DNA of 64,000 bases from Frigoribacterium sp. PhB116 (lineage in GTDB: Bacteria > Actinomycetota > Actinomycetes > Actinomycetales > Microbacteriaceae). Location of the stretch: positions 1 to 64,000 of the forward strand of contig NZ_SOBE01000006.1 in the NCBI RefSeq assembly GCF_004364285.1. The letters run 5' to 3'. The translations under genes and the position numbers were made by a program. This document shows positions 5,806 through 63,394 of this stretch, in pieces (position 1 is the first letter of the stretch; each line of letters opens with the position of its first letter). The notes under the pieces were generated by a model. That model had not been told where the DNA came from and searched no databases. It saw nothing but the letters and a program-made list of their open reading frames with translations.

Positions 5806-5862
5806 CGAGGTGACGCGTCGCGGGGGTCCGGCCGGCTCTGACCCCCGCGACGCGTCACCTCG
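5806..5862. repeat. Family A 3'-end palindrome, copy 1 (perfect 23-bp arms)
   Basis: Arms 5806-5828 and 5840-5862 are perfect complements around an 11-nt loop. The core TGACGCGTCGCGGGGGTC recurs at 35898-35964, with a diverged relative at 8205-8267. It lies 38 bp after the alcohol dehydrogenase stop. There is no T-tract, so it is not a textbook terminator. Confidence 0.85.
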
Positions 5863-8206: not shown

Positions 8207-8267
8207 TCGAGGTGACGCCCCGAGGGGGTCGCGGACCTCGCGACCCCGCGTCGGCGTCACATCGATC
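8205..8267. repeat. Family A-like 3'-end palindrome, copy 2 (imperfect)
   Basis: Arms 8205-8233 and 8239-8267 pair at about 24 of 29 positions. They share GAGGTGACGC and GGGGGTC with family A. The left arm begins inside the amidoligase stop codon and the right arm ends 10 bp before the stop of the convergent lipoprotein gene, so it could serve both transcripts. Confidence 0.75.
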
Positions 8268-17398: not shown

Positions 17399-18130
17399 AT
17401 GCAGCTGCACACGACCACCACCGGCGACGGCGAGCGGCACGTGGGGCTGGTGCACGGGCTGGGCGCCGACGGCGAGACGTGGCGGCCGCTCGTCGACCGG
17501 ATGCTCGAGACGGGCCGGTACACGGTGACGACGGTCGACCTGCGGGGCCACGGGCACAGCGGCCGGGCCGCGTCGTACGGCCTCGACGAGTTCGCGACGG
17601 ACCTGGTCGAGGCCCTGCCGACGGGCCTGCACAGCGTGGTCGGGCACTCGCTCGGCGGCGCCGTGCTCGTCCGGGCGGTCGCGCGGCTGCAGCCGCTCCG
17701 GGCGATCTACCTCGACCCGGGCTTCCACCTGGCGCTGCCGACCAGCGGCCTCGCCGGGCGGCTTTTCTGGGCCGTGCCGCCGCTGACGCTGGCCGTGGCA
17801 GGCCTCGCGCAGGCACGCACGACCAAGGCGGTGCGCGCGAGCTACGACGCGGCGACGGTCGCGCTGCTCGACGACGCCCGCGAGCGGTTCGACACGAGGA
17901 TGGCGATCGGGGTGTTCCGTGACGTGGCGCACGCGCCGATCGAGGTGGCGCCTCCTGCGGTGCCCTCGGTCGTCGTGCTCTCGGACGACAGCCCGGCCGT
18001 GCTGCCCGAGCCCGTCGCCCGCTCGCTCGAGGGCGTCGGCTGGGAGCTGCGCCGCCTGCCCGGCGTGCACCACGACATGCACCTCGAGGCGCCCGACCGC
18101 GTGTTCGAGCTCGTCGCCGACGTGCTCTAG
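17399..18130 (+). CDS. Alpha/beta hydrolase
   Basis: 243 residues. The first strand opens with the oxyanion segment LVHGLGADGETWRP, the nucleophile elbow is VVGHSLGGAVL, and the C-terminal base is the His in LPGVHHDMHLEAP. Compact lid region (about 105-165). It follows the MFS gene by 79 bp in the same direction and could be co-transcribed. A paralogous fold, but not a close copy of the hydrolase at 12917-13804. Substrate unknown. Confidence 0.88.
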   Translation: MQLHTTTTGDGERHVGLVHGLGADGETWRPLVDRMLETGRYTVTTVDLRGHGHSGRAASYGLDEFATDLVEALPTGLHSVVGHSLGGAVLVRAVARLQPLRAIYLDPGFHLALPTSGLAGRLFWAVPPLTLAVAGLAQARTTKAVRASYDAATVALLDDARERFDTRMAIGVFRDVAHAPIEVAPPAVPSVVVLSDDSPAVLPEPVARSLEGVGWELRRLPGVHHDMHLEAPDRVFELVADVL

Positions 18131-18140
18131 CGCGCCTCCC

Positions 18141-18213
18141 TCGAGTTGCGAGCCGCGAGTCGCCCCGGATCGTCACGTGGCCGGGCCGGAGGCGACCGTT
18201 CGGGGCAACTCGT
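18141..18213. repeat. Family B 3'-end palindrome, copy 1 (diverged)
   Basis: The right arm TTCGGGGCAACTCG (18199-18212) matches family B exactly; the left side carries CGAGTTGC and, nested, GAGTCGCCCCGGATCG. It lies between convergent stop codons (18130 and 18225), almost filling the gap. Confidence 0.7.
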
Positions 18214-18224
18214 GCGGCTGCGCC

Positions 18225-18890
18225 TCAGCCGAAGGGCAGCGGAGACGTGATGTCGGTCTGCGCGAGCACGACGGCCGCGGCGACGGCCACCACCCCGAGC
18301 AGCCCGCCCCGCCACCACCGCTCGCTGAGCAGGTACCCCGCAGAGGCGAGCGCGCCCGCCCCGGCCACGACGCTGAGCGCGACCGAGACGAACACCTGCG
18401 CGACGGACTGCGTCTCCGGGTCGCCCGTGAACGCCGTGACGACGACGCACACGAGCATGATCAGGACGAAGAGACCTCCGAACACTGCGCCGATCCCGAC
18501 GATCCCGAAGAGCAGCTCCGAGGTCGGCTCCCACCGGATCAGCCGCTGCTGCCGGGGCGACCCGAGGTGCTCGGTCGTCTCCGGGGGCAGCCCGCCCGAC
18601 AGGGCGAGGTAGTCGCGCACCTCCTCCTCCGTCTCGAACTGCAGCAGCGACCGGCGCAGCGCGTGACGCTCACGGGCGTCGAGCGAGGCGAGGTCGTGGG
18701 CGCCCCACCGGGCCGCCTGGTCGGGGTTGCCGGCCCGGCGGTAGAACTCCGAGAGGGCGTCGCGGTAGGCCCGCTCGTCCGGGTGGCGACGGGCGTGGAC
18801 CAGCAGCGAGTCCCACGCGGCCCGGTGCTCGCCGTCGTCGAAGCGCGCGCGGGCGGCGTCGACGATCTCGCGGGTCGTGCGGGTGGGCAT
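18225..18890 (-). CDS. Membrane protein with N-terminal TPR-like helices (DUF6584-like)
   Basis: 221 residues. The N-terminal half is helical with a TPR-like rhythm (ARFDDGEHRAAWDSLLVHAR, then DALSEFYRRAGNPDQAARWG) and residues on amino-acid order such as RHALRRSLLQFETEEEVRDY. Three or four hydrophobic segments fill the second half (about 130-215). The layout resembles Streptomyces proteins labelled DUF6584; I recognise it only loosely. GGAG precedes the ATG at 18890. Divergent from a small leaderless gene. Role unknown. Confidence 0.75.
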   Translation of the reverse strand: MPTRTTREIVDAARARFDDGEHRAAWDSLLVHARRHPDERAYRDALSEFYRRAGNPDQAARWGAHDLASLDARERHALRRSLLQFETEEEVRDYLALSGGLPPETTEHLGSPRQQRLIRWEPTSELLFGIVGIGAVFGGLFVLIMLVCVVVTAFTGDPETQSVAQVFVSVALSVVAGAGALASAGYLLSERWWRGGLLGVVAVAAAVVLAQTDITSPLPFG

Positions 18891-18947
18891 GCGGGACTCC
18901 GGGGAAAGGGGTCGGGAGGCGGACCTCGTCACGATAGCGTCGCCTCC

Positions 18948-19208
18948 GTGGATCGACGGCCTCATGACGCAGGGAGCGATCCCGCGCACGCCAGGGTCAC
19001 ACCCGACGTGCCCGCGCACGACGGGCCGATGCACGAGGGGCCGAGGCACCTCGGCCGTCCGCTCAGCCGACGTGAGCGACGAGAGGCGGAGGACGCCCGT
19101 GCCCGAGGAGGCGCCCCGCGCCGGTTCCCCCGCCTGCACCGCTGGCTGCAGCGCTGGGTCGCCCACCCCGTGGCCGTGTTCCTCGACGCCCTCGGCAACG
19201 CCTTCTGA
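18948..19208 (+). CDS. Small basic protein of unknown function
   Basis: 86 residues if started at the GTG at 18948, which sits 7 nt after a -10-like TAGCGT (18935-18940), suggesting a leaderless mRNA; the alternative ATG at 19029 would give 59 residues. The middle is strongly basic (SRRERREAEDARARGG) and the C-terminus is an amphipathic/hydrophobic segment (WLQRWVAHPVAVFLDALG), perhaps a membrane-associated helix. No family recognised. Codon bias is ordinary for the window, which is the main support for it being real. Confidence 0.5.
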   Translation: MDRRPHDAGSDPAHARVTPDVPAHDGPMHEGPRHLGRPLSRRERREAEDARARGGAPRRFPRLHRWLQRWVAHPVAVFLDALGNAF

Positions 19209-19369
19209 CCGAGCCCCCTCCTCGACGAGGCCCGTTCACAGCCGCCTCTTACCGAATCCCTGAGGTTCTGTTAGGTTCCGGCATGGGGCTAGCCCCCTCT
19301 TCGTTCCTGGCGCTGGGCCTCGACGGACATGCAACGACGCACGTATCCACCTCGAGAGAAAGAACGCCC
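19209..19369 (+). promoter_or_regulatory. Promoter/leader of the LAYTG surface protein
   Basis: Relatively AT-rich. A possible -35 TTACCG (about 19248) and -10 TTAGGT (about 19270) are 16 nt apart. The leader contains the perfect palindrome GGGGCTAGCCCC at 19284-19295, which could form a small hairpin. The assignment is weak. Confidence 0.35.
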
Positions 19370-20971
19370 TTGCGCTCATCAGCCAGAAGGGGCCTCGTCG
19401 CTGCGCCGACGGCCCTCGCACTCGCCCTCGGAGGTGTCCTGCTCGCCGCAGGGCCCGCCTCCGCGGCCGCCCCCGTGACGATCACGTCGCCGGCGCCCGG
19501 CTCCACCTACGACAACTCGGCCGGCCTGCCTCAGGTCGTGCCGATCACGGGCACCGGCCTGCCGACCACCGACGACCTCGTGCTCACCTACGACATCGGC
19601 ACCGGCACCCCCGCTCAGGCCCTGTTCAGCGGCACGACGCACAACGACGACGGCTCGTTCTTCGTGAACGCCAACTTCGGACAGCTGCCCCCGGGTGAGA
19701 CGACGGTCCTGGCGACCGTCGCGGGCGCGGATGCGCAGTCGGGCCTCGCCGACCCCGAGGTGACCCCGCTGGCCTACACCTTCGAGCTTGCCGTCGCGCC
19801 GAACCCGGCATCCCCCTTCACCGTGACCTACCCCGGCACGGGCACGGTCGTCGACACGACCACGCCCGTCTTCACCGGAACGGCGCAGCCCGGCAGCACG
19901 GTCACGGTGACGTACAGCAACAAGAACCTCGGCAACTCCACCGCCGGCACCGGCATCGCCGACCTCGCCGGCAACTACTCGATCCCGACGACGTTCCTCG
20001 ACCTCGCACCGGGCTCGCTCGGCACGGGTGCGAACGTCACCCAGTCGAACCCCGACGCTCAGGTCGGACGCCTCTCGGTGAACTTCACGTTCGCCCAGGC
20101 GCCCGTGCCCGCGATCGCCCCGACGATCACGGCGACGCCCGACGAGGTGACCGTCGACGAGGCGACCACCACCGGTGTCGCGATCGCTGCCACCGGCTTC
20201 AGCCCTGGCGAGGAGATCACCACCGTCGTGACCGACTCCGAGGGCGCCGTCGTCGAGCTCGCCGACCGTGCGCTGAACTACTACGCGGACGACACCGTTG
20301 GCGCCTACGCCGACACGGTCGTCTTCGCCGACGACGTGCTCGCCGACGACTACACGATCACGCTGACCGGCGTCCGCTCGGGCATCGTCCAGGCCGTCGA
20401 CGTCACCGTCGCCGACGAGGTCGTCCTGCTCACGCCCACCCCGGTGATCACCAGCCCCACGGAGGGGCAGGTCGTCACAGGCGGCACCGTCACGATCTCG
20501 GGCACCGGCCCCGTCGGCACGGGCATCGTCCTGACCGTCGCCGACTCGTCGTTCCTCGACGGGACAGTCACCGAGACCCCCGCCGCGGGCCGCTTCTACA
20601 TCACCGACCTCGCCGACCCGATCCTTGTCGACGACGCGGGCAACTGGACCGTCTCCGTCGAGCTGCTCCCCGGTGAGTACGTGACCCAGGCGATCGCTGC
20701 CGAGCTGAACGCAGACGGCTCCGTGAACGAGACCGGAGGTGTGTCCGAGCCTTCGAACGTCGTCGCCTTCTCGCTCGTCGCGGCCCCGGCCGCTGTGGTA
20801 CCTCCCGGCGTGACGCCGGCGGCTCCCGTCGCCCGTCCGGCAGGTCTCGCCTACACCGGGTCCGAGGCGTCGCAGGGCGTCGTCGGCGCCGCGCTGCTGC
20901 TCCTCCTCGGCGGAGGGCTGCTCGTCGCCGCCCGTCGCCGCCGTGCGCTGACCGTCGACTCGGCCGAGTAG
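19370..20971 (+). CDS. Cell-wall-anchored surface protein with LAYTG sorting signal
   Basis: 533 residues. The N-terminal signal peptide (RRGLVAAPTALALALGG to ASAAAP) leads into Thr/Val-rich Ig-like beta repeats: segments beginning VTITSPAPGSTYDN, FTVTYPGTGTVVDTT and PTPVITSPTEGQVVTGG. The C-terminus is RPAGLAYTGSEA, a hydrophobic span (VVGAALLLLLGGG) and RRRR: the LAxTG signal of actinobacterial class E sortases. The TTG at 19370 is chosen because the signal peptide starts there and AGAAAG precedes it; an ATG 87 nt upstream would give an odd head. Likely an adhesin or structural wall protein. Confidence 0.85.
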   Translation: MRSSARRGLVAAPTALALALGGVLLAAGPASAAAPVTITSPAPGSTYDNSAGLPQVVPITGTGLPTTDDLVLTYDIGTGTPAQALFSGTTHNDDGSFFVNANFGQLPPGETTVLATVAGADAQSGLADPEVTPLAYTFELAVAPNPASPFTVTYPGTGTVVDTTTPVFTGTAQPGSTVTVTYSNKNLGNSTAGTGIADLAGNYSIPTTFLDLAPGSLGTGANVTQSNPDAQVGRLSVNFTFAQAPVPAIAPTITATPDEVTVDEATTTGVAIAATGFSPGEEITTVVTDSEGAVVELADRALNYYADDTVGAYADTVVFADDVLADDYTITLTGVRSGIVQAVDVTVADEVVLLTPTPVITSPTEGQVVTGGTVTISGTGPVGTGIVLTVADSSFLDGTVTETPAAGRFYITDLADPILVDDAGNWTVSVELLPGEYVTQAIAAELNADGSVNETGGVSEPSNVVAFSLVAAPAAVVPPGVTPAAPVARPAGLAYTGSEASQGVVGAALLLLLGGGLLVAARRRRALTVDSAE

Positions 20972-21271
20972 CACCGCACCGCACCACCGCACCTCAGCTG
21001 CACCTCAGCTGCACCTCGCCCGCCCCGGGCGGCACCACGGACTTCCGTGGTCGTCGGCCGGGGCGGGCGTCGCTCTGGCTGGCGCGGCATGCCCCCTGGA
21101 CGCGGGCGAGTTCGTCGTCCGCGGGCTGTGGCGACGGCCCGCTCGCGACGAACAGGCCCGTGGTCGGCGGGTCAGACGAGCCGAGGAGGCAGGCGAGCAG
21201 ACGAGGCAGTTCGGATGACTTCCGCAGGTCCTCCCGGGGGTCTGCACATCGGGGGCCAGCACGATGTGCTC
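20972..21271. other. 300-bp spacer holding a terminator; no gene seen
   Basis: Begins with two copies of CACCTCAGCTG (about 20990-21013), then the nested hairpin at 21017-21069. The remaining 200 bp are unique; an in-frame ATG at about 21213 preceded by GAGG could be an alternative, 19-codon-longer start of the next gene. Confidence 0.5.
21017..21069 (+). terminator. Nested hairpin terminator after the LAYTG gene
   Basis: Outer arms 21017-21028 (CGCCCGCCCCGG) and 21058-21069 are perfect complements and enclose a second hairpin CCACGG-ACTT-CCGTGG (21035-21050). It lies 46 bp after the stop. Confidence 0.65.
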
Positions 21272-22321
21272 ATGCCCGACTTCAAGCGCCTCCTGGGCGC
21301 CGCCGCGAAAGCGCTCGGCGACTCGAACTCCTCCTCGTCCTCCTCCCGCAACGGCCAGCCGCCGCGACCGGGCGCCGGCTCCGGGTCCAGCTCAGGTTCC
21401 GGCACCGACTGGCGTGACCTCGTCCGCACGGCGGCCGACAAGCTGACCCGCGACGGCCACCAGCAGCAGCAGGGCGACCAGCGAGGAGGCGGCCCGCAGC
21501 AGGGGCAGGCTGGCTACGGCCAGCAGGGGCAGGCCTACGACCAGCAGGGCCGGCAGGGCGACGGCCAGCAGCGGCAGAGCCAGCAGGGCGGCTACGACGG
21601 GCGTCGGCAGGGTGAGCAGCAGCGCCCGGCCCAGCAGCACGGCGCGTCCGGCGCTCCCCGCGCGACCGAGGCCGACCGCGTCGCCCTCGGCAAGTACGAC
21701 TACCTCCTCCGCACGGCCGAGCCCGAGCAGCTCGAGCAGGTGCACCGCGACGCGTTCGCCCGCCTGACCCCGCAGCAGCGCGAGCTCGTCCAAGCACGCC
21801 TCACGGAGGAGCTCCCCGCGCACGAGCAGCCCCGCAGCGGCAGCACCGACGACCTCGCCCGGGCCGCCACCCGCGGCGAGACCGTGCACCCCGGGCTCAT
21901 GCAGCGCGTCTTCGGCGGCCACGGACGCCCCGGACAGGACTCGGGCGGCACCGCCACCGGCGCCCGTCAGGGCTCCGGCGCAGGGAAGTTCGCTGCAGGA
22001 GCTGCCGCCGGCGCGGGAGTCGCCGCACTCGGCGGCCTCGCACTCGCGGTCGCTGGCGGTGCCGCCGTCAGCAGCGTCGCGGGCCCGCTCCTCTCGGGAG
22101 CGCTCGCGAACGGCGTCGACTTCGGCGGCCTCGCCGAGAACTTCGGGCTCGAGGGCATCGCCGGGCTCTCCGAGGGCCTCGGCGGCCTGACCGAGGGCGT
22201 CGACGGCATCGCACAGGGCGGCGAGGAGTACCTCACCGGCCTCGGCGAGCAGGTCGGCGGCCTCGGCGAGGGCTTCCAGATCCCCGGGCTGGGCGACCTC
22301 GGCGGTCTCTTCGACCGCTAG
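21272..22321 (+). CDS. Low-complexity Gln-rich protein with Gly/Ala-rich hydrophobic tail
   Basis: 349 residues, no family recognised. The order is: a short helical head (MPDFKRLLGAAAKALG), a Ser-rich patch, a Gln/Gly-rich disordered block (about 58-125, many QQGQ units), a structured helical core (KYDYLLRTAEPEQLEQVHRD then FARLTPQQRELVQARL), a linker, then a Gly/Ala hydrophobic helix (AAGAGVAALGGLALAVAGG) and a final stretch of GLxxGLGG repeats. The core resembles a domain seen in actinobacterial proteins often mis-called cation-transporting ATPases. Start uncertain: an upstream ATG near 21213 has a better ribosome site. PEBP gene follows. Confidence 0.7.
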   Translation: MPDFKRLLGAAAKALGDSNSSSSSSRNGQPPRPGAGSGSSSGSGTDWRDLVRTAADKLTRDGHQQQQGDQRGGGPQQGQAGYGQQGQAYDQQGRQGDGQQRQSQQGGYDGRRQGEQQRPAQQHGASGAPRATEADRVALGKYDYLLRTAEPEQLEQVHRDAFARLTPQQRELVQARLTEELPAHEQPRSGSTDDLARAATRGETVHPGLMQRVFGGHGRPGQDSGGTATGARQGSGAGKFAAGAAAGAGVAALGGLALAVAGGAAVSSVAGPLLSGALANGVDFGGLAENFGLEGIAGLSEGLGGLTEGVDGIAQGGEEYLTGLGEQVGGLGEGFQIPGLGDLGGLFDR

Positions 22322-22369
22322 CGCGCCTCCTGCGGCACCACACCTGCCCGCACCCGCGGGCCCCGCTCA

Positions 22370-22412
22370 GACCCTCGTGCGCGCACGGGGGTCTGCGCGG
22401 TTTCCGAGGGTG
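22370..22412. repeat. Family C 3'-end palindrome, copy 2 (short)
   Basis: Outer arms ACCCTCG (22371-22377) and CGAGGGT (22406-22412) enclose TGCGCGCA and TGCGCGGTTTC, matching the family C core (CGCGCGCAC / GTGCGCGGTTCCGAGGGG). It is about 50 bp after the stop of the Gln-rich protein gene. Confidence 0.6.
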
Positions 22413-22466
22413 CCGGAGCATGATCCCCCAGGAGGCGCCACCCGGCCGCCCCAGGAAAGGACCGTC

Positions 22467-23018
22467 ATGAGCGACACCACCGGAAACGACCCCTTCGCCC
22501 GCCTCCCCGAGGTGCCGAGCTTCACCGTCACGAGCGCCACCGTCGAGGACGGCGCCCCCTTCGCGCAGCAGCAGTACTCCGGGGCCTTCGGCGTCCCCGG
22601 CGGCCAGGACGTGTCGCCGCAGCTCTCGTGGTCGGGTGCCCCTGAGGGCACCAAGAGCTACGCCGTCACCGTCTACGACCCCGACGCCCCCACGCAGTCG
22701 GGCTTCTGGCACTGGGCCGTCGCGAACATCCCGGCGTCCGTGACCGACCTGCCCGAGGGCGCCGGCGACGCGACCGGCGCGCAGCTCCCCGAGGGGGCGT
22801 ACCAGTTGCCGAACGACTCGCGGGCTCCCTCGTTCATCGGTGCCGCACCTCCTGCGGGCCACGGCCAGCACCGCTACTTCGTGACGGTGCACGCGCTCGA
22901 CGTCGAGGACATCGAGGTGCCCGCCGACGGGACGCCCGCGTTCCTCAACTTCACGATCGCGTCGCACATCCTCGCGCGCGCCACGCTCGTCGCGACCGGC
23001 GAGATCCCCGCCGAGTAG
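22467..23018 (+). CDS. YbhB/YbcL family PEBP-like protein
   Basis: 183 residues, phosphatidylethanolamine-binding-protein fold of the YbhB/YbcL (Raf-kinase-inhibitor-like) type. Signatures are QDVSPQLSWSGAPEGTKSY, the ligand-pocket motif YDPDAPTQSGFWHWAVANI and the GHGQHRYFVTVHALD strand. Cytoplasmic, no signal peptide. A clear GGAAAGGA site lies before the ATG at 22467. Bacterial members bind small anionic ligands; no defined pathway. Standing alone between two repeat-bearing spacers. Confidence 0.92.
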   Translation: MSDTTGNDPFARLPEVPSFTVTSATVEDGAPFAQQQYSGAFGVPGGQDVSPQLSWSGAPEGTKSYAVTVYDPDAPTQSGFWHWAVANIPASVTDLPEGAGDATGAQLPEGAYQLPNDSRAPSFIGAAPPAGHGQHRYFVTVHALDVEDIEVPADGTPAFLNFTIASHILARATLVATGEIPAE

Positions 23019-23043
23019 CCGGCCCAGGAGGCGGCAGCGGCAC

Positions 23044-23098
23044 GGGTTGCCCCGAACTGCTGCTCCCGACTCACGGGGGCAGCAGTTCGGGGCGACTC
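23044..23098. repeat. Family B 3'-end palindrome, copy 2
   Basis: Arms 23044-23063 and 23079-23098 pair at 18 of 20 positions around a 15-nt loop. The core is TTGCCCCGAACTGCTGC. It begins 26 bp after the PEBP stop codon. Confidence 0.85.
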
Positions 23099-23139
23099 GC
23101 CGTCGCCACCTGCCGCGTGTGCCGGGGCTAGGGCGGCCT

Positions 23140-23190
23140 CGGCAACATGTGCTTTCACTGTGGAGTCACATCATGGTGAAGCTAGTCTGA
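23140..23190 (+). promoter_or_regulatory. Candidate promoter/operator of the flavin monooxygenase gene
   Basis: An AT-richer island with two interleaved inverted repeats: TTCAC (23154) / GTGAA (23176) and ATGTG (23147) / CACAT (23167). A -10-like TAGTCT is at 23183-23188. It is a plausible binding site for the MarR protein encoded downstream. Confidence 0.45.
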
Positions 23191-23232
23191 CGTCATGCAG
23201 CCGAGATCGGCCGCTCCACGGAAGGCTCCACG

Positions 23233-24459
23233 ATGACCACACCCCCCTCCTCCCCGGCCGCGCGCCCCCGCGTCCTCGTCACCGGAGCGAGCATCGCCGG
23301 CCCGGCACTCGCCTGGGGCCTCGCGAAGTCCGGCTTCGACGTCGTGCTGCTCGAGCGCTCCGCCGAGCCCCGCGAGACCGGCCAGAACATCGACGTCCGC
23401 GGGCTCGGTCGCGAGATCCTGACCCGGATGGGCGTCGAGGAGGCGGTGCTCGCGAACCTGACCGGCGAGGACGGCACGCGCTTCGTCGACGAGTCCGGCC
23501 GCCCCTACGCCGTGTTCCCGCGAGAGGAGGGGCAGGACGGCCCGACCGCCGAGGTCGAGATCCTGCGCGGGCGGCTCGCGGGCATCCTCGCGGACCTCGT
23601 CCCGGCCGACGTCGAGCGCCGCTTCGGCGACTTCGTCGTGGGGGCCGAGCAGGACGCGACGGGCGTCGACGCCACCTTCGACAGCGGCGCCGAGGAGCGT
23701 TTCGACCTGTTCCTGGTGGCCGAGGGGCGCAGCTCGCGCACCCGCCGCCTCCTCTTCGCGGACGAGACCGAGCTGCGCGACTTCGGCGTCAGCATCACGT
23801 ACGGCACGATCGACCGCCGGCCCGGCGACGTCGACTCCTGGGACTGGTTCACCGCGGCCCGCGGCCGCGTCGCGTCGGTGCGGCCCGACAACCTCGGCAC
23901 GATCAGGGCGTGCATGTCGTTCGAGTCCGAGCCGATGGGCTTCGAGGGGCTCCCGGTGGAGGCGCAGCTGCAGCTGCTGAGGGAGCGCTTCCGAGGTGCG
24001 GGCTGGCAGACCGAGCGCATCCTCGACGGCTTCGACGCCCGTCCGGACGAGTTCTACACGCAGCGGATGGAGCAGGTCGTCATGTCGACCTGGAGCCGGG
24101 GCCGCATCGCGCTCGTCGGCGACGCCGCCTGGGGCTCGGGCCCGACGGGCATGGGCACGACGCTGTCGCTGGTCGGTGCGCACATCCTCGTCGGCGAGCT
24201 CGCCGCGAGCCCGGATCGCCCGGCGCATGCCTTCGCCCGGTACGAACGGCAGATGCGTCGCTACGCCGACAGCGCGCAAGGGCTGCCGCGCGGCGGGGCG
24301 AAGCTGATGCACCCGTCGTCGGGCGCCGGGGTGAAGGCGATCCAGACGATGCACCGCGTCACCGCGTCGCGGCCGGTCCGGAAGTTCTTCCAGGCGAACC
24401 TGCTCACGAGCGAGAAGCACGTGTCGGTGCTGGCCGAGTACCCGCAGCTGCGTGCCTGA
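23233..24459 (+). CDS. FAD-dependent monooxygenase (PHBH/TetX-like class A)
   Basis: 408 residues. The N-terminal FAD Rossmann motif is VTGASIAGPALAWGLAKSGF with LLERS; the DG-type motif appears as DLFLVAEGRSSRTRR; the GD motif is GRIALVGDAAWGSGPTGMG. It hydroxylates an aromatic or polyketide-like compound using NAD(P)H and O2; TetX/RifMo-like detoxification is possible but not demonstrated. GGAAGG precedes the ATG. The MarR regulator gene follows after 64 nt, a usual arrangement for an inducible detoxification unit. Confidence 0.88.
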   Translation: MTTPPSSPAARPRVLVTGASIAGPALAWGLAKSGFDVVLLERSAEPRETGQNIDVRGLGREILTRMGVEEAVLANLTGEDGTRFVDESGRPYAVFPREEGQDGPTAEVEILRGRLAGILADLVPADVERRFGDFVVGAEQDATGVDATFDSGAEERFDLFLVAEGRSSRTRRLLFADETELRDFGVSITYGTIDRRPGDVDSWDWFTAARGRVASVRPDNLGTIRACMSFESEPMGFEGLPVEAQLQLLRERFRGAGWQTERILDGFDARPDEFYTQRMEQVVMSTWSRGRIALVGDAAWGSGPTGMGTTLSLVGAHILVGELAASPDRPAHAFARYERQMRRYADSAQGLPRGGAKLMHPSSGAGVKAIQTMHRVTASRPVRKFFQANLLTSEKHVSVLAEYPQLRA

Positions 24460-24523
24460 GGCCGGCGACCCAGGGCCCGATGCGGGGACGATCGCGACGA
24501 CGTCTCGATGGGAGGATCGACCC

Positions 24524-25036
24524 ATGACGACGCCGACGCCGCCCCCGCCGACGCCGAGGACGCAGGTGCTCGAGGCCCTGCGGCACTACGCCGTGACCTA
24601 CCAGGAGTCGGCCCACCAGCTCGCCCGCTGGATGGAGCTGCCGACCGTCGACGGCACGGCCCTCGGCGAGGTGATCTGGGCCGAGCGCGAGGACGCGCCG
24701 CTCACGCCGGCGAAGCTCTCGAGCAGGATCGGCCTGACCTCGGGCGCGACGACCGCCCTGCTCAACCGGCTCGAGGCCCAGGGCCTGGTCGCCCGCAGCC
24801 GCGAGAGCACCGACCGCCGTGTCGTGACGCTGCGGGCGACCGAGCAGGCGCACGAGCGCATCGAGCCGTTCCTTCGCCGGGGCGGTGCCGCCCTCGAGGC
24901 GGCCCTGGACGACTACGACGACGAGGCGCTGGAGGCGGTGCGCGCGTTCCTGACGCGGCTCGCCGCGGTGCTGCCGGGCGCCTCCGACGCGTCGCCGCCG
25001 CCGCCCGCGGACGAATCGCCGACCACCGCCTCCTGA
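24524..25036 (+). CDS. MarR family transcriptional regulator
   Basis: 170 residues. The winged helix-turn-helix shows LTPAKLSSRIGLTSGATT then LLNRLEAQGLVARSRESTDR and the wing RRVVTLRATEQA. A Pro-rich tail closes the protein. GGAGGATCG lies 7 nt before the ATG. It is encoded directly after the monooxygenase and is likely its repressor, releasing DNA when an aromatic ligand binds. Confidence 0.9.
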   Translation: MTTPTPPPPTPRTQVLEALRHYAVTYQESAHQLARWMELPTVDGTALGEVIWAEREDAPLTPAKLSSRIGLTSGATTALLNRLEAQGLVARSRESTDRRVVTLRATEQAHERIEPFLRRGGAALEAALDDYDDEALEAVRAFLTRLAAVLPGASDASPPPPADESPTTAS

Positions 25037-25099
25037 GGGACCGCCGCCTCCTCGAGCCCCTCCGTCTCTCGGCGGCCCTCCGCCTCCCGGACGACGTCT

Positions 25100-25162
25100 C
25101 GACGAGTTGCCCCGAACAGCTGCCTCCGAGCGAGCGAGGCCGCACGTCGGGGCAACTCGTCG
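25100..25162. repeat. Family B 3'-end palindrome, copy 3 (perfect 16-bp outer arms)
   Basis: Arms 25100-25115 (CGACGAGTTGCCCCGA) and 25147-25162 are perfect complements with a 31-nt interior. It follows the MarR gene and ends 35 bp before the next start codon. Confidence 0.88.
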
Positions 25163-25197
25163 TCGACGCGGCGCGGGCGCCGTGCCAGGGTGCAGGG

Positions 25198-25734
25198 ATG
25201 ACCTCCCCGCAGGCGCTCTCGGAGACCGATCGCCGGCTCGTCGCCGCGTGGGCGGCCGACTGCGCGGAGCGCGTCCTGCCCCTCTTCGAGCAGGAGGCGC
25301 CCGCCGACGACCGCCCTCGCGACGGCATCACGCGCACCCGCGCCTTCGCCCGCGGAGAGCTCGACGCCGTCGGCGAGATCCGTCGCCGCTTCGTCGCCGG
25401 TCGTGCCGCACAGGCCGTGACCTCGCCCGCGGCCAGGGCCGCCGCGTGGTCGGCAGGGCAAGCGTCGGGCGTCGCGCACATGGGCGCGCACGCCCTGGGC
25501 GCCGCGGCCTACGCCGTGAAGGCCGTCACCCTGGCCGCCCCCGACGACGACGGGACCGCAGGAGGCGCGGCCGAGATCACCTGGCAGCTGCGGCACCTGA
25601 GCCCGCCGGTCCGCAGGGCTCTCGCGCGCCTCCCCCTGCTCGGAGAGGACAGCTCGGGCCCGCTCGGCACCGGCCTGCTCGCGTCGGGCACGCTCGGCGA
25701 CGCGATCCGCACGCTCCAGGGGGGCCTGCGCTAG
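25198..25734 (+). CDS. Imm-5-like putative immunity protein
   Basis: 178 residues, all-helical. The opening LSETDRRLVAAWAADCAERV, then LPLFEQEAPADDRPRDGI and TRAFARGEL, match the Imm-5-like domain found in many actinobacterial proteins. In polymorphic toxin systems Imm-5 proteins neutralise a partner toxin, but orphan copies are common and their role is unclear. No toxin gene is nearby. The helix-rich centre AAWSAGQASGVAHMGAHALG is well conserved in the family. No clear Shine-Dalgarno precedes the ATG. Confidence 0.75.
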   Translation: MTSPQALSETDRRLVAAWAADCAERVLPLFEQEAPADDRPRDGITRTRAFARGELDAVGEIRRRFVAGRAAQAVTSPAARAAAWSAGQASGVAHMGAHALGAAAYAVKAVTLAAPDDDGTAGGAAEITWQLRHLSPPVRRALARLPLLGEDSSGPLGTGLLASGTLGDAIRTLQGGLR

Positions 25735-25749
25735 CCGCCCGCGCCTCCC

Positions 25750-25812
25750 CTCGCGCTCGCACTCGCGCTCGCACTCGCACTCGCACTCGCACTCGCACTC
25801 GCACTCGCACTC
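25750..25812. repeat. Tandem hexamer array CTCGCA/CTCGCG
   Basis: About ten CTCGC(A/G) units run uninterrupted from the Imm-5-like gene's 3' spacer straight into a family B palindrome. Probably strain-variable in length. Confidence 0.9.
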
Positions 25813-25873
25813 GACGAGTTGCCCCGAACCGCTGCCCTGAGCCCCGGGAAGCAGCAGTTCGGGGCAACTCGAC
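25811..25873. repeat. Family B 3'-end palindrome, copy 4
   Basis: Arms 25817-25835 and 25851-25870 pair with core GAGTTGCCCCGAAC / GTTCGGGGCAACTC plus GCTGC/GCAGC. Flanking TCGACG/CGACG extend the symmetry. The spacer between the Imm-5-like gene and the small membrane protein gene contains it. Confidence 0.88.
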
Positions 25874-45025: not shown

Positions 45026-45040
45026 CCCGGACCGAGCCGG

Positions 45041-45100
45041 ACACCCCTGAGTGGACGATGCACCCCGCAACGACGGGGTGCATCGTCCACTTCGGGGTGT
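45041..45100. repeat. Type E 3'-end palindrome (25 of 27 bp)
   Basis: Arms 45041-45067 and 45074-45100 pair at 25 of 27 positions around a 6-nt loop. The core is GTGGACGATGCACCCCG. It is between the convergent SDR and VOC genes. Confidence 0.9.
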
Positions 45101-45149
45101 CAGGCCACGGGGTGCCCGACTACGAGATGTCGGGCCTGCCCGCCGCCCG

Positions 45150-63338: not shown

Positions 63339-63394
63339 GTCTCGTTCCGAGCATCCCGTCGCGTCCTGGCGAGACGGGGTGCTCGGAACGAGAC
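63339..63394. repeat. Type F 3'-end palindrome (21 of 22 bp)
   Basis: Arms 63339-63360 and 63373-63394 pair at 21 of 22 positions with a 12-nt loop. The core is GTCTCGTTCCGAGCA. It begins 5 bp after the DUF4232 gene's stop. Confidence 0.9.

Follow-up and report, generated by a model that had tools for sequence, protein, structure and literature searches.

Four hairpins at positions 18156-25871 of the 64,000-nucleotide stretch of Frigoribacterium sp. PhB116 studied here (contig NZ_SOBE01000006.1, positions 1 to 64,000; hereafter the window) are probably copies of a mobile palindrome that is small, non-autonomous and similar to REPINs (hairpin-forming doublets of repetitive extragenic palindromes, REPs) or to miniature inverted-repeat transposable elements (MITEs). 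We favour this reading because the unit has a nearly fixed length, has undergone a burst in one lineage, is missing from sites in relatives and is more conserved in its stem than in its loop. The arms of each copy are complementary mainly since both match the consensus of their lineage, with modest compensation at the level of single copies in addition. The family, with a length of 55-58 nt, is apparently undescribed so far: Rfam gave 0 matches at the gathering score for the window and 17 further loci, and searches of open-licence literature listed no work describing such a palindrome family in Microbacteriaceae.

The window palindromes are 57-nt units running from a terminal C to a terminal G; in each, a 24-nt arm and its inverted counterpart flank 9 less constrained bases. 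An earlier note, made from the window's letters alone, had described four arm-sharing palindromes; these proved real and beyond chance, except that copy 1 starts at 18156, the sequence at 18141 being a partial arm. Compared with GAGTTGCCCCGAAC, the eight 14-nt arms of copies 1-4 include four exact matches, two with 1 mismatch, one with 2 and one with 3. At up to 3 mismatches the total for the whole window is unremarkable (13 matches against 8.46 expected, with 13 reached by 9 of 100 shuffles); what stands out is that nearly exact arms occur, and occur in fixed pairs. Across the 3.37-Mb genome, GAGTTGCCCCGAAC at up to 1 mismatch yielded 15 matches versus 0 for a reversed-pattern control. Folding gave z-scores of -10.9, -7.4 and -7.3 for copies 2, 3 and 4, and of -1.2 (21 of 200 shuffles as good) for 18136-18218, which is copy 1 at about the extent given in the earlier note. 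As that note had said, each copy follows a stop codon, on the + strand and with gaps of 25, 24, 66 and 80 nt. The four copies lie within 7.7 kb, and contig 4 of a congeneric genome (G003) carries nine copies in about 20 kb (6381-26505), in a stretch partly orthologous to the window.

To follow the family across genomes, we used two covariance models, R1, derived from eight own-genome copies, and R2, a broader model of 37 sequences. In the window genome (G000; other genomes and fetched stretches are likewise denoted by G and L numbers), R1 returned 34 matches at E <=10, with both strands counted and weak matches included, and at E <=0.001 it detected the family in 14 of 16 Frigoribacterium genomes, the window genome among them. 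R2 matched 35 of 120 Microbacteriaceae genomes, in 28 of 85 genera, at E <=1e-5, and 11 of 198 genomes of an order-level sample, 4 of them from other families, at E <=1e-6. The phylum-level sample gave 2 of 246, namely the window genome and one 36-nt match lacking the unit architecture. These family, order and phylum searches applied stricter filters, under which weak matches are lost. Stretches were fetched around some of the better matches, among the ~150 listed, in part of the genomes, yielding 167 copies, 118 from Frigoribacterium and 49 from other genera. Their length is nearly constant: two copies measure 55 nt, 29 measure 56, 104 measure 57 and 32 measure 58, which places 165 of 167 at 56-58 nt. 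About 8-10 nt of drifting sequence separate the arms. One Frigoribacterium match (G013) covers only 51 nt, and stretch L146 of G104, where the contig ends, is not a unit. Exact arm pairs were found in two stretches of a contig database, both of Frigoribacterium faeni AS3.2, with records near the window genome possibly excluded; viral contigs, searched for exact matches to one arm class, and plasmids, searched with one 141-base query, gave zero matches.

Most fetched copies of a genome carry one dominant arm sequence, sometimes together with a second class, and lineages differ in which. The class CGAGTTGCCCCGAAC is found in the window genome, G003 and G015, G009 has CGAGATGTCACGAC and CGAGTGGTCCCG, and others are CGAGGCGTCGCAATC in G061, TGAGGGGTCCCATATG in G062 and CGGGTGGACGCG in G122. 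Thirty hand-picked arm classes have in common the skeleton YGAG..G.C.C.....G, with G2 present in 30/30, A3, G4 and G17 in 29/30, G7 and C9 in 28/30, and C11 in 26/30. Within classes, the stem is held more tightly than what surrounds it: among 23 copies of G009, mean pairwise identity is 0.94 in the outer stem, 0.60 in the loop and 0.41 in the flank, and in 9 of 9 groups the stem exceeds the loop in conservation.

The burst was observed in G009. There, the arm CGAGATGTCACGACNTGCCGCTCA at up to 3 mismatches occurs 44 times forward and 43 times in reverse, which combine into 41 pairs, 40 of 58 nt and one of 57 nt, and leave five single arms, while the forward/reverse counts in relatives are 12/9 (G004), 3/4 (G005), 3/6 (G006) and 3/0 (G008). 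We compared nine burst sites with both flanks located in fetched G005 or G006 stretches. Eight of the nine are without a unit in the relatives and one is filled by the same class (L166:1397 in G006). At L163, L164 and L165 the unit is missing from both G005 and G006 with the same junction; at L160:2567, L161 (which has ~550 bp of other sequence) and L162 it is missing in G005, and at L166:3043 and L166:3798 in G006. The best hairpin scores at these eight sites are 5-6 at six, 8-10 at L165 and 22 at L166:3798, relative to a baseline with a median of 6 and 34% of scores at >=10, the finder overlooking hairpins with an unpaired interior such as that of the filled site L100:1468. Of the gene-conversion-like copying suggested by the earlier note, the copying is supported by the burst and by these sites; gene conversion alone, however, does not explain a gain where relatives show no such hairpin. 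Three of three TGGTCCC-class sites that we tested are filled in relatives.

We then asked how far the complementarity of the arms reaches below the level of the lineage. In a set of 37 exact 57-mers drawn from mixed classes, paired cells make up 89.9% versus 74.4% after shuffling, and 142 cells are changed on both sides versus 46.2, values reached by 0 of 500 shuffles in either case; both figures are inflated by relatedness, and much of this signal is the two arms tracking their lineage consensus. In the window genome itself, the covariation expected by the earlier note was not found, since eight aligned copies did not exceed shuffles and nine strict-class copies were equalled by 430 of 2000; it emerged once more genomes were included. 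For the copy-level test, we used strict, non-overlapping arm classes and unique sequences and dealt the arms between copies in 2000 shuffles. Five of ten groups pair above shuffles (as good in 0 for G003, 3 for G061, 8 for G015, 15 for G009 and 15 for G074), and the other five do not (405 for G122, 684 for the TGGTCCC class, 1355 for G001 and 1810 for G062, besides the 430 of G000). Rare arm deviations are mirrored in the opposite arm in 30 of 136 cases versus 4.35 expected, 16 of the 30 coming from the small groups G061 and G074. Stronger mirroring seen earlier in loose, overlapping and mixed classes (10 of 12 groups; 64 of 184 versus 4.8) shrank under the strict classes and is superseded. 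The two arms of one copy are hence linked in their complementarity, but weakly, and the complementarity that the earlier note saw as maintained is so between lineages and only modestly copy by copy. The pair GGGTTGC/GCGACTC, which it had put forward as compensatory-looking, consists of two changes, each confined to one arm, with G.T wobbles as the result.

The placement of the units relative to genes was examined for 169 copies (the 167 and two other window units), with orthologous copies counted separately and genes called by a codon-bias script. The flanking genes are convergent for 70 copies, tandem for 81 and divergent for 13, and the remaining 5 copies fall inside called open reading frames; the expected convergent share of convergent plus divergent places is 0.30 in unbiased stretches and 0.45 in hit-centred ones. 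The enrichment at 3' ends that the earlier note proposed to look for is therefore present. In tandem gaps with room, the unit is closer to the upstream stop than to the downstream start in 69 of 80, at a median relative position of 0.28. Divergent neighbours are commoner for the burst class (5 of 24) than for the remaining copies (8 of 143; p 0.023), which fits insertion followed by purging.

Most of these observations can be accommodated by a scheme for a mobile palindrome. A trans-acting enzyme or binding protein would recognise the arms and copy the unit, and this mobilising factor would be other than an IS200/RAYT transposase (RAYT, REP-associated tyrosine transposase). New copies would insert in intergenic DNA; those upstream of genes would more often be lost through purging, and copies at 3' ends would persist. 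A hairpin at a 3' end may end or protect transcripts arriving from either side, and such a putative function is plausible for the retained copies.

We searched for a mobiliser in several ways. The Y1 transposase family PF01797, which contains the RAYTs, was found at E <=0.001 in 0 of 16 Frigoribacterium genomes and 1 of 120 Microbacteriaceae genomes (G026, in which units are present), the same search matching 5 of 14 control genomes. When 252 neighbouring genes were clustered, the largest cluster had 10 members; Pfam searches of 147 of them, in sets of 63 and 84, encountered each family in at most 5 members, and the 25 families listed per set (of 79 and 118 matched) included no transposase. 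Likewise, no transposase was found by Pfam among ten genes between nearby copies and ten window genes. As to a parent element with the same ends, no wider arm pair near a gene was seen in G009, and in G000 13 of the 15 arm matches lie inside R1-matched units, C2:28428 and C2:129132 falling in no such unit; this look covered two genomes and two arm classes, and a parent could have diverged ends.

Several points count against the units being mobile palindromes. Neither a mobiliser nor an autonomous element with these arms was found. A hairpin substrate should give rise to mirroring, yet none of 10 rare deviations is mirrored in the G009 burst class and none of 14 in the TGGTCCC class. The gain at the clean junctions L164 and L165 amounts to ~80 and ~86 bp rather than 58, and at the L163-L165 junctions no duplication stands beside the unit and extra flank was gained, leaving the ends of the insertion undefined. 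Absence in two relatives could be loss, and the loops of the burst copies are too different for young copies unless there were several source copies. Several copies are old and common to more than one species; copy 4, for example, has an orthologous copy in G012 (L088:2956). Finally, clustering near the origin, described below, is not predicted. Taken together, the lack of a mobiliser, the additional flank gained, the weakness of compensation at copy level and the trend towards the origin give room for a reading in which the arms are protein-binding half-sites.

In that reading, which we hold unlikely, the arms would be inverted half-sites at fixed spacing for a chromosome-organising protein, serving origin-proximal nucleoid organisation or supercoiling control in the manner of gyrase sites in bacterial interspersed mosaic elements (BIMEs) or of nucleoid-occlusion sites. 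It agrees with a spacer of nearly fixed length without sequence conservation, with the conserved skeleton positions G7 and G17 being 10 bp apart, and with left and right arms that vary independently around their consensus in half of the strict classes. It is also in line with the position of the units on the chromosome: in seven single-contig genomes, the dnaA-proximal half holds 49 of 61 listed sites, and 30 of 40 (p 0.002) when no more than one site per 50 kb is kept, G009 (several contigs) being omitted and the length of G101 being taken as 4.0 Mb. The bias is not universal, however (Kolmogorov-Smirnov p 0.32 for G006 alone and 0.08 for G062, with both G101 sites in the far half), and in a G015 sample the whole set of intergenic hairpins thins out likewise, 12 stretches up to 1 Mb from dnaA having 49 and 8 more distant stretches 14, so the trend may be general. 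Moreover, at the cut-offs used no units occur in 85 of 120 Microbacteriaceae and 2 of 16 Frigoribacterium genomes, copy numbers differ several-fold between close relatives, and independent half-sites have no need of the 30 mirrored deviations.

Transcription terminators, that is, strong bidirectional hairpins selected at gene 3' ends whose likeness within a genome stems from occasional copying, are a fairly unlikely alternative in our estimate, even though they would account for the strong 3'-end and convergent-gene enrichment and for the unrelated hairpins that replace the unit at some orthologous 3' ends (window 23043 in G015, L166:3798 in G006). Intrinsic terminators of GC-rich actinobacteria are strong GC-rich hairpins after stops; the units differ from them in their nearly fixed length, repeated sequence and want of a T tract. 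Other intergenic hairpins vary in length between 26 and 76 nt (26-79 being the limits of the scan) while the unit keeps to 55-58, a terminator does not need a lineage-specific arm sequence, and 33 of 49 tandem copies have 0-1 T in the 8 nt after the hairpin, none having more than 4. Furthermore, six of the eight unit-less sites score only 5-6, no higher than the baseline median, subject to the blind spot of the finder given above. G.U pairs on the sense strand in tandem contexts show no excess over A.C pairs (82 versus 83; 56/69 in Frigoribacterium without the burst, 23/12 in other genera, 3/2 in the burst), though this test is weak and does not discriminate, ordinary hairpins also being equal at 21 versus 18. 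Very improbable, finally, is a purely mutational origin of the covariation, in which quasi-palindrome template switching, a known process of replication, perfects any palindrome with no selection on structure. Mirrored rare changes and the lack of a strand-wise G.U excess fit such a DNA-level process, yet it leaves the nearly fixed length, the cross-genus skeleton and the higher conservation of stem over loop unexplained, 106 of 136 rare changes are unmirrored, and G015 pairs better in the outer (289/300) than in the inner arm (192/300). Template switching may nonetheless operate alongside the spread of a mobile palindrome.

Among known systems, MITEs consist of two inverted ends with little between them and no gene. 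The units are like them in their inverted ends, absence of a gene, lineage burst and sites empty in relatives, and unlike them in that pairing extends over ~24 bp, no target duplication was seen and no same-end parent was seen in G000 or G009. Integron attC sites carry the core sites RYYYAAC/GTTRRRY, which the skeleton YGAG..G.C.C.....G does not match; no search for integrase genes was made. Closer are the REPs and REPINs of the GTAG superfamily, which are likewise short extragenic palindromes that keep their stems complementary despite variation, spread non-autonomously within a genome and also occur as doublets (PMC3116915, PMC2817692), a form seen for our units at some places. Unlike REP/RAYT systems, the present family is longer (55-58 nt), actinobacterial and nearly always without the Y1 family, and its units do not have the unpaired GTAG or GT(A/G)G head: in 334 ten-base flanks of the 167 copies, GTAG occurs in 4 and GTGG in 12, one of each adjacent to the unit. 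The second superfamily, CGTC-tagged REPs, is marked by loops of 4-5 bp, a CGTC tag that is unpaired and short tails that are also unpaired. It includes some rickettsial palindromic elements (RPE) and neisserial dRS3 repeats, and resembles ours in that its palindromic families, found in several phyla, have no dedicated transposase (PMC3733652). Our units, by contrast, have paired ends (YGAG...CTCR) and a loop of ~8-10 nt, and CGTC is adjacent to the unit in 0 of 334 flanks and somewhere in the flank in 23 of 334. The family thus has a REP-like way of life and belongs to neither the GTAG nor the CGTC superfamily. In those parts of the REP literature that we covered, families are moved by or listed beside IS200-like RAYT enzymes or have no known mover, and a term search in two of the papers gave no mention of Actinobacteria.

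The window and related genomes contain further palindromes and arrangements, collected in Table 1 where they have coordinates of their own. Two window units with other arms belong to the family by architecture only, as they are absent from the R1 matches even at E 10; at the site in G003 orthologous to the one at 5806 there are two TTGCCCC-class units (L071:8183/8304). Some older orthologous sites have hairpins of different arm class (G000 L009/G012 L090, G000 L010/G015 L069). At 6 of 7 places fetched from G122 the units form doublets, 16 nt of unrelated sequence lying between the two, and six doublets with other spacers (27-182 nt) occur in five other genomes. In G241 (contig 17, 169145-169390; L255, L251), three matched 57-nt units follow each other with a period of ~94 nt, a locally amplified tandem form. 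A short CTCGCA/CTCGCG tandem repeat occupies window 25745-25813 immediately ahead of copy 4, and the G012 orthologue of that copy (L088) has similar sequence, CTCGCACTCG, ahead of its unit. L228 (G006), the orthologue of L166:3798, carries an unrelated long palindrome with GAACCCCGTT arms where G009 has a 58-nt unit. G015 also has a second long-palindrome family, and five sets of look-alike palindromes were assembled by eye (sequences GGCGGGTTC, GAACCCGCGCGCACCC, GAACCGAACCATGAACCGCG, GTTCCGAGCATC and AGTGGACGATGCACCCCG); Frigoribacterium seems rich in palindrome families. At L114:10336-10393 of G015, ~6 kb from dnaA, a hairpin between convergent genes bears at both ends TGTTTCACGTGAAAC palindromes, which we take to be parS-like.

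Table 1. Palindromic units of the window and other palindromes recorded in this study (positions without an L number refer to the window).
Feature	Position	Arms	Context or remark
Copy 1	18156-18212	left arm diverged, GAGTCGCCCCGGAT at 18157, 3 mismatches	between convergent genes 17399-18130(+) and 18225-18890(-)
Copy 2	23043-23099		24 nt past end of PEBP-family gene 22467-23018(+)
Copy 3	25103-25159		66 nt past end of MarR-family gene 24566-25036(+)
Copy 4	25815-25871		80 nt past end of Imm-5-like gene 25198-25734(+)
Unit with other arms	5806-5862	CGAGGTGACGCG	38 nt past a gene end; assigned by architecture
Unit with other arms	8208-8264	CGAGGTGACGCCCC	between convergent genes; assigned by architecture
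Second long-palindrome family	L113:9559-9634, L113:12042-12111, L117:14662-14733, L129:930-1005	around GAGGGCGGGTC	G015; 70-76 nt
Look-alike palindromes	L117:338-401, L117:14461-14536		by-eye set
Look-alike palindromes	L113:15753-15820, L117:1469-1536, L117:11543-11606		by-eye set
Look-alike palindromes	L118:6932-6991, L118:12408-12447		by-eye set
Look-alike palindromes	L116:17293, L119:11433, window 63339-63394		by-eye set
Look-alike palindromes	L117:17317, L129:18047, window 45036-45105		by-eye set

Taking the mobile-palindrome reading one step further, we tentatively propose, as a possibility that falls somewhat short of probable, that the units make up a third superfamily of mobile repeats with palindromic structure, which we saw only in Micrococcales and which would move without an IS200/RAYT enzyme. 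Its factor would read a constant skeleton together with lineage-specific bases at a fixed geometry; the arm code would be replaced wholesale between lineages, the arms staying complementary, and copies would come to rest at gene ends, chiefly on the half of the chromosome nearer the origin. If this is true, a RAYT-less family of fixed geometry with many diverged arm codes would mean that palindromes can spread by another route, and the variation of the arm code would offer a comparative data set for tracing the protein responsible.

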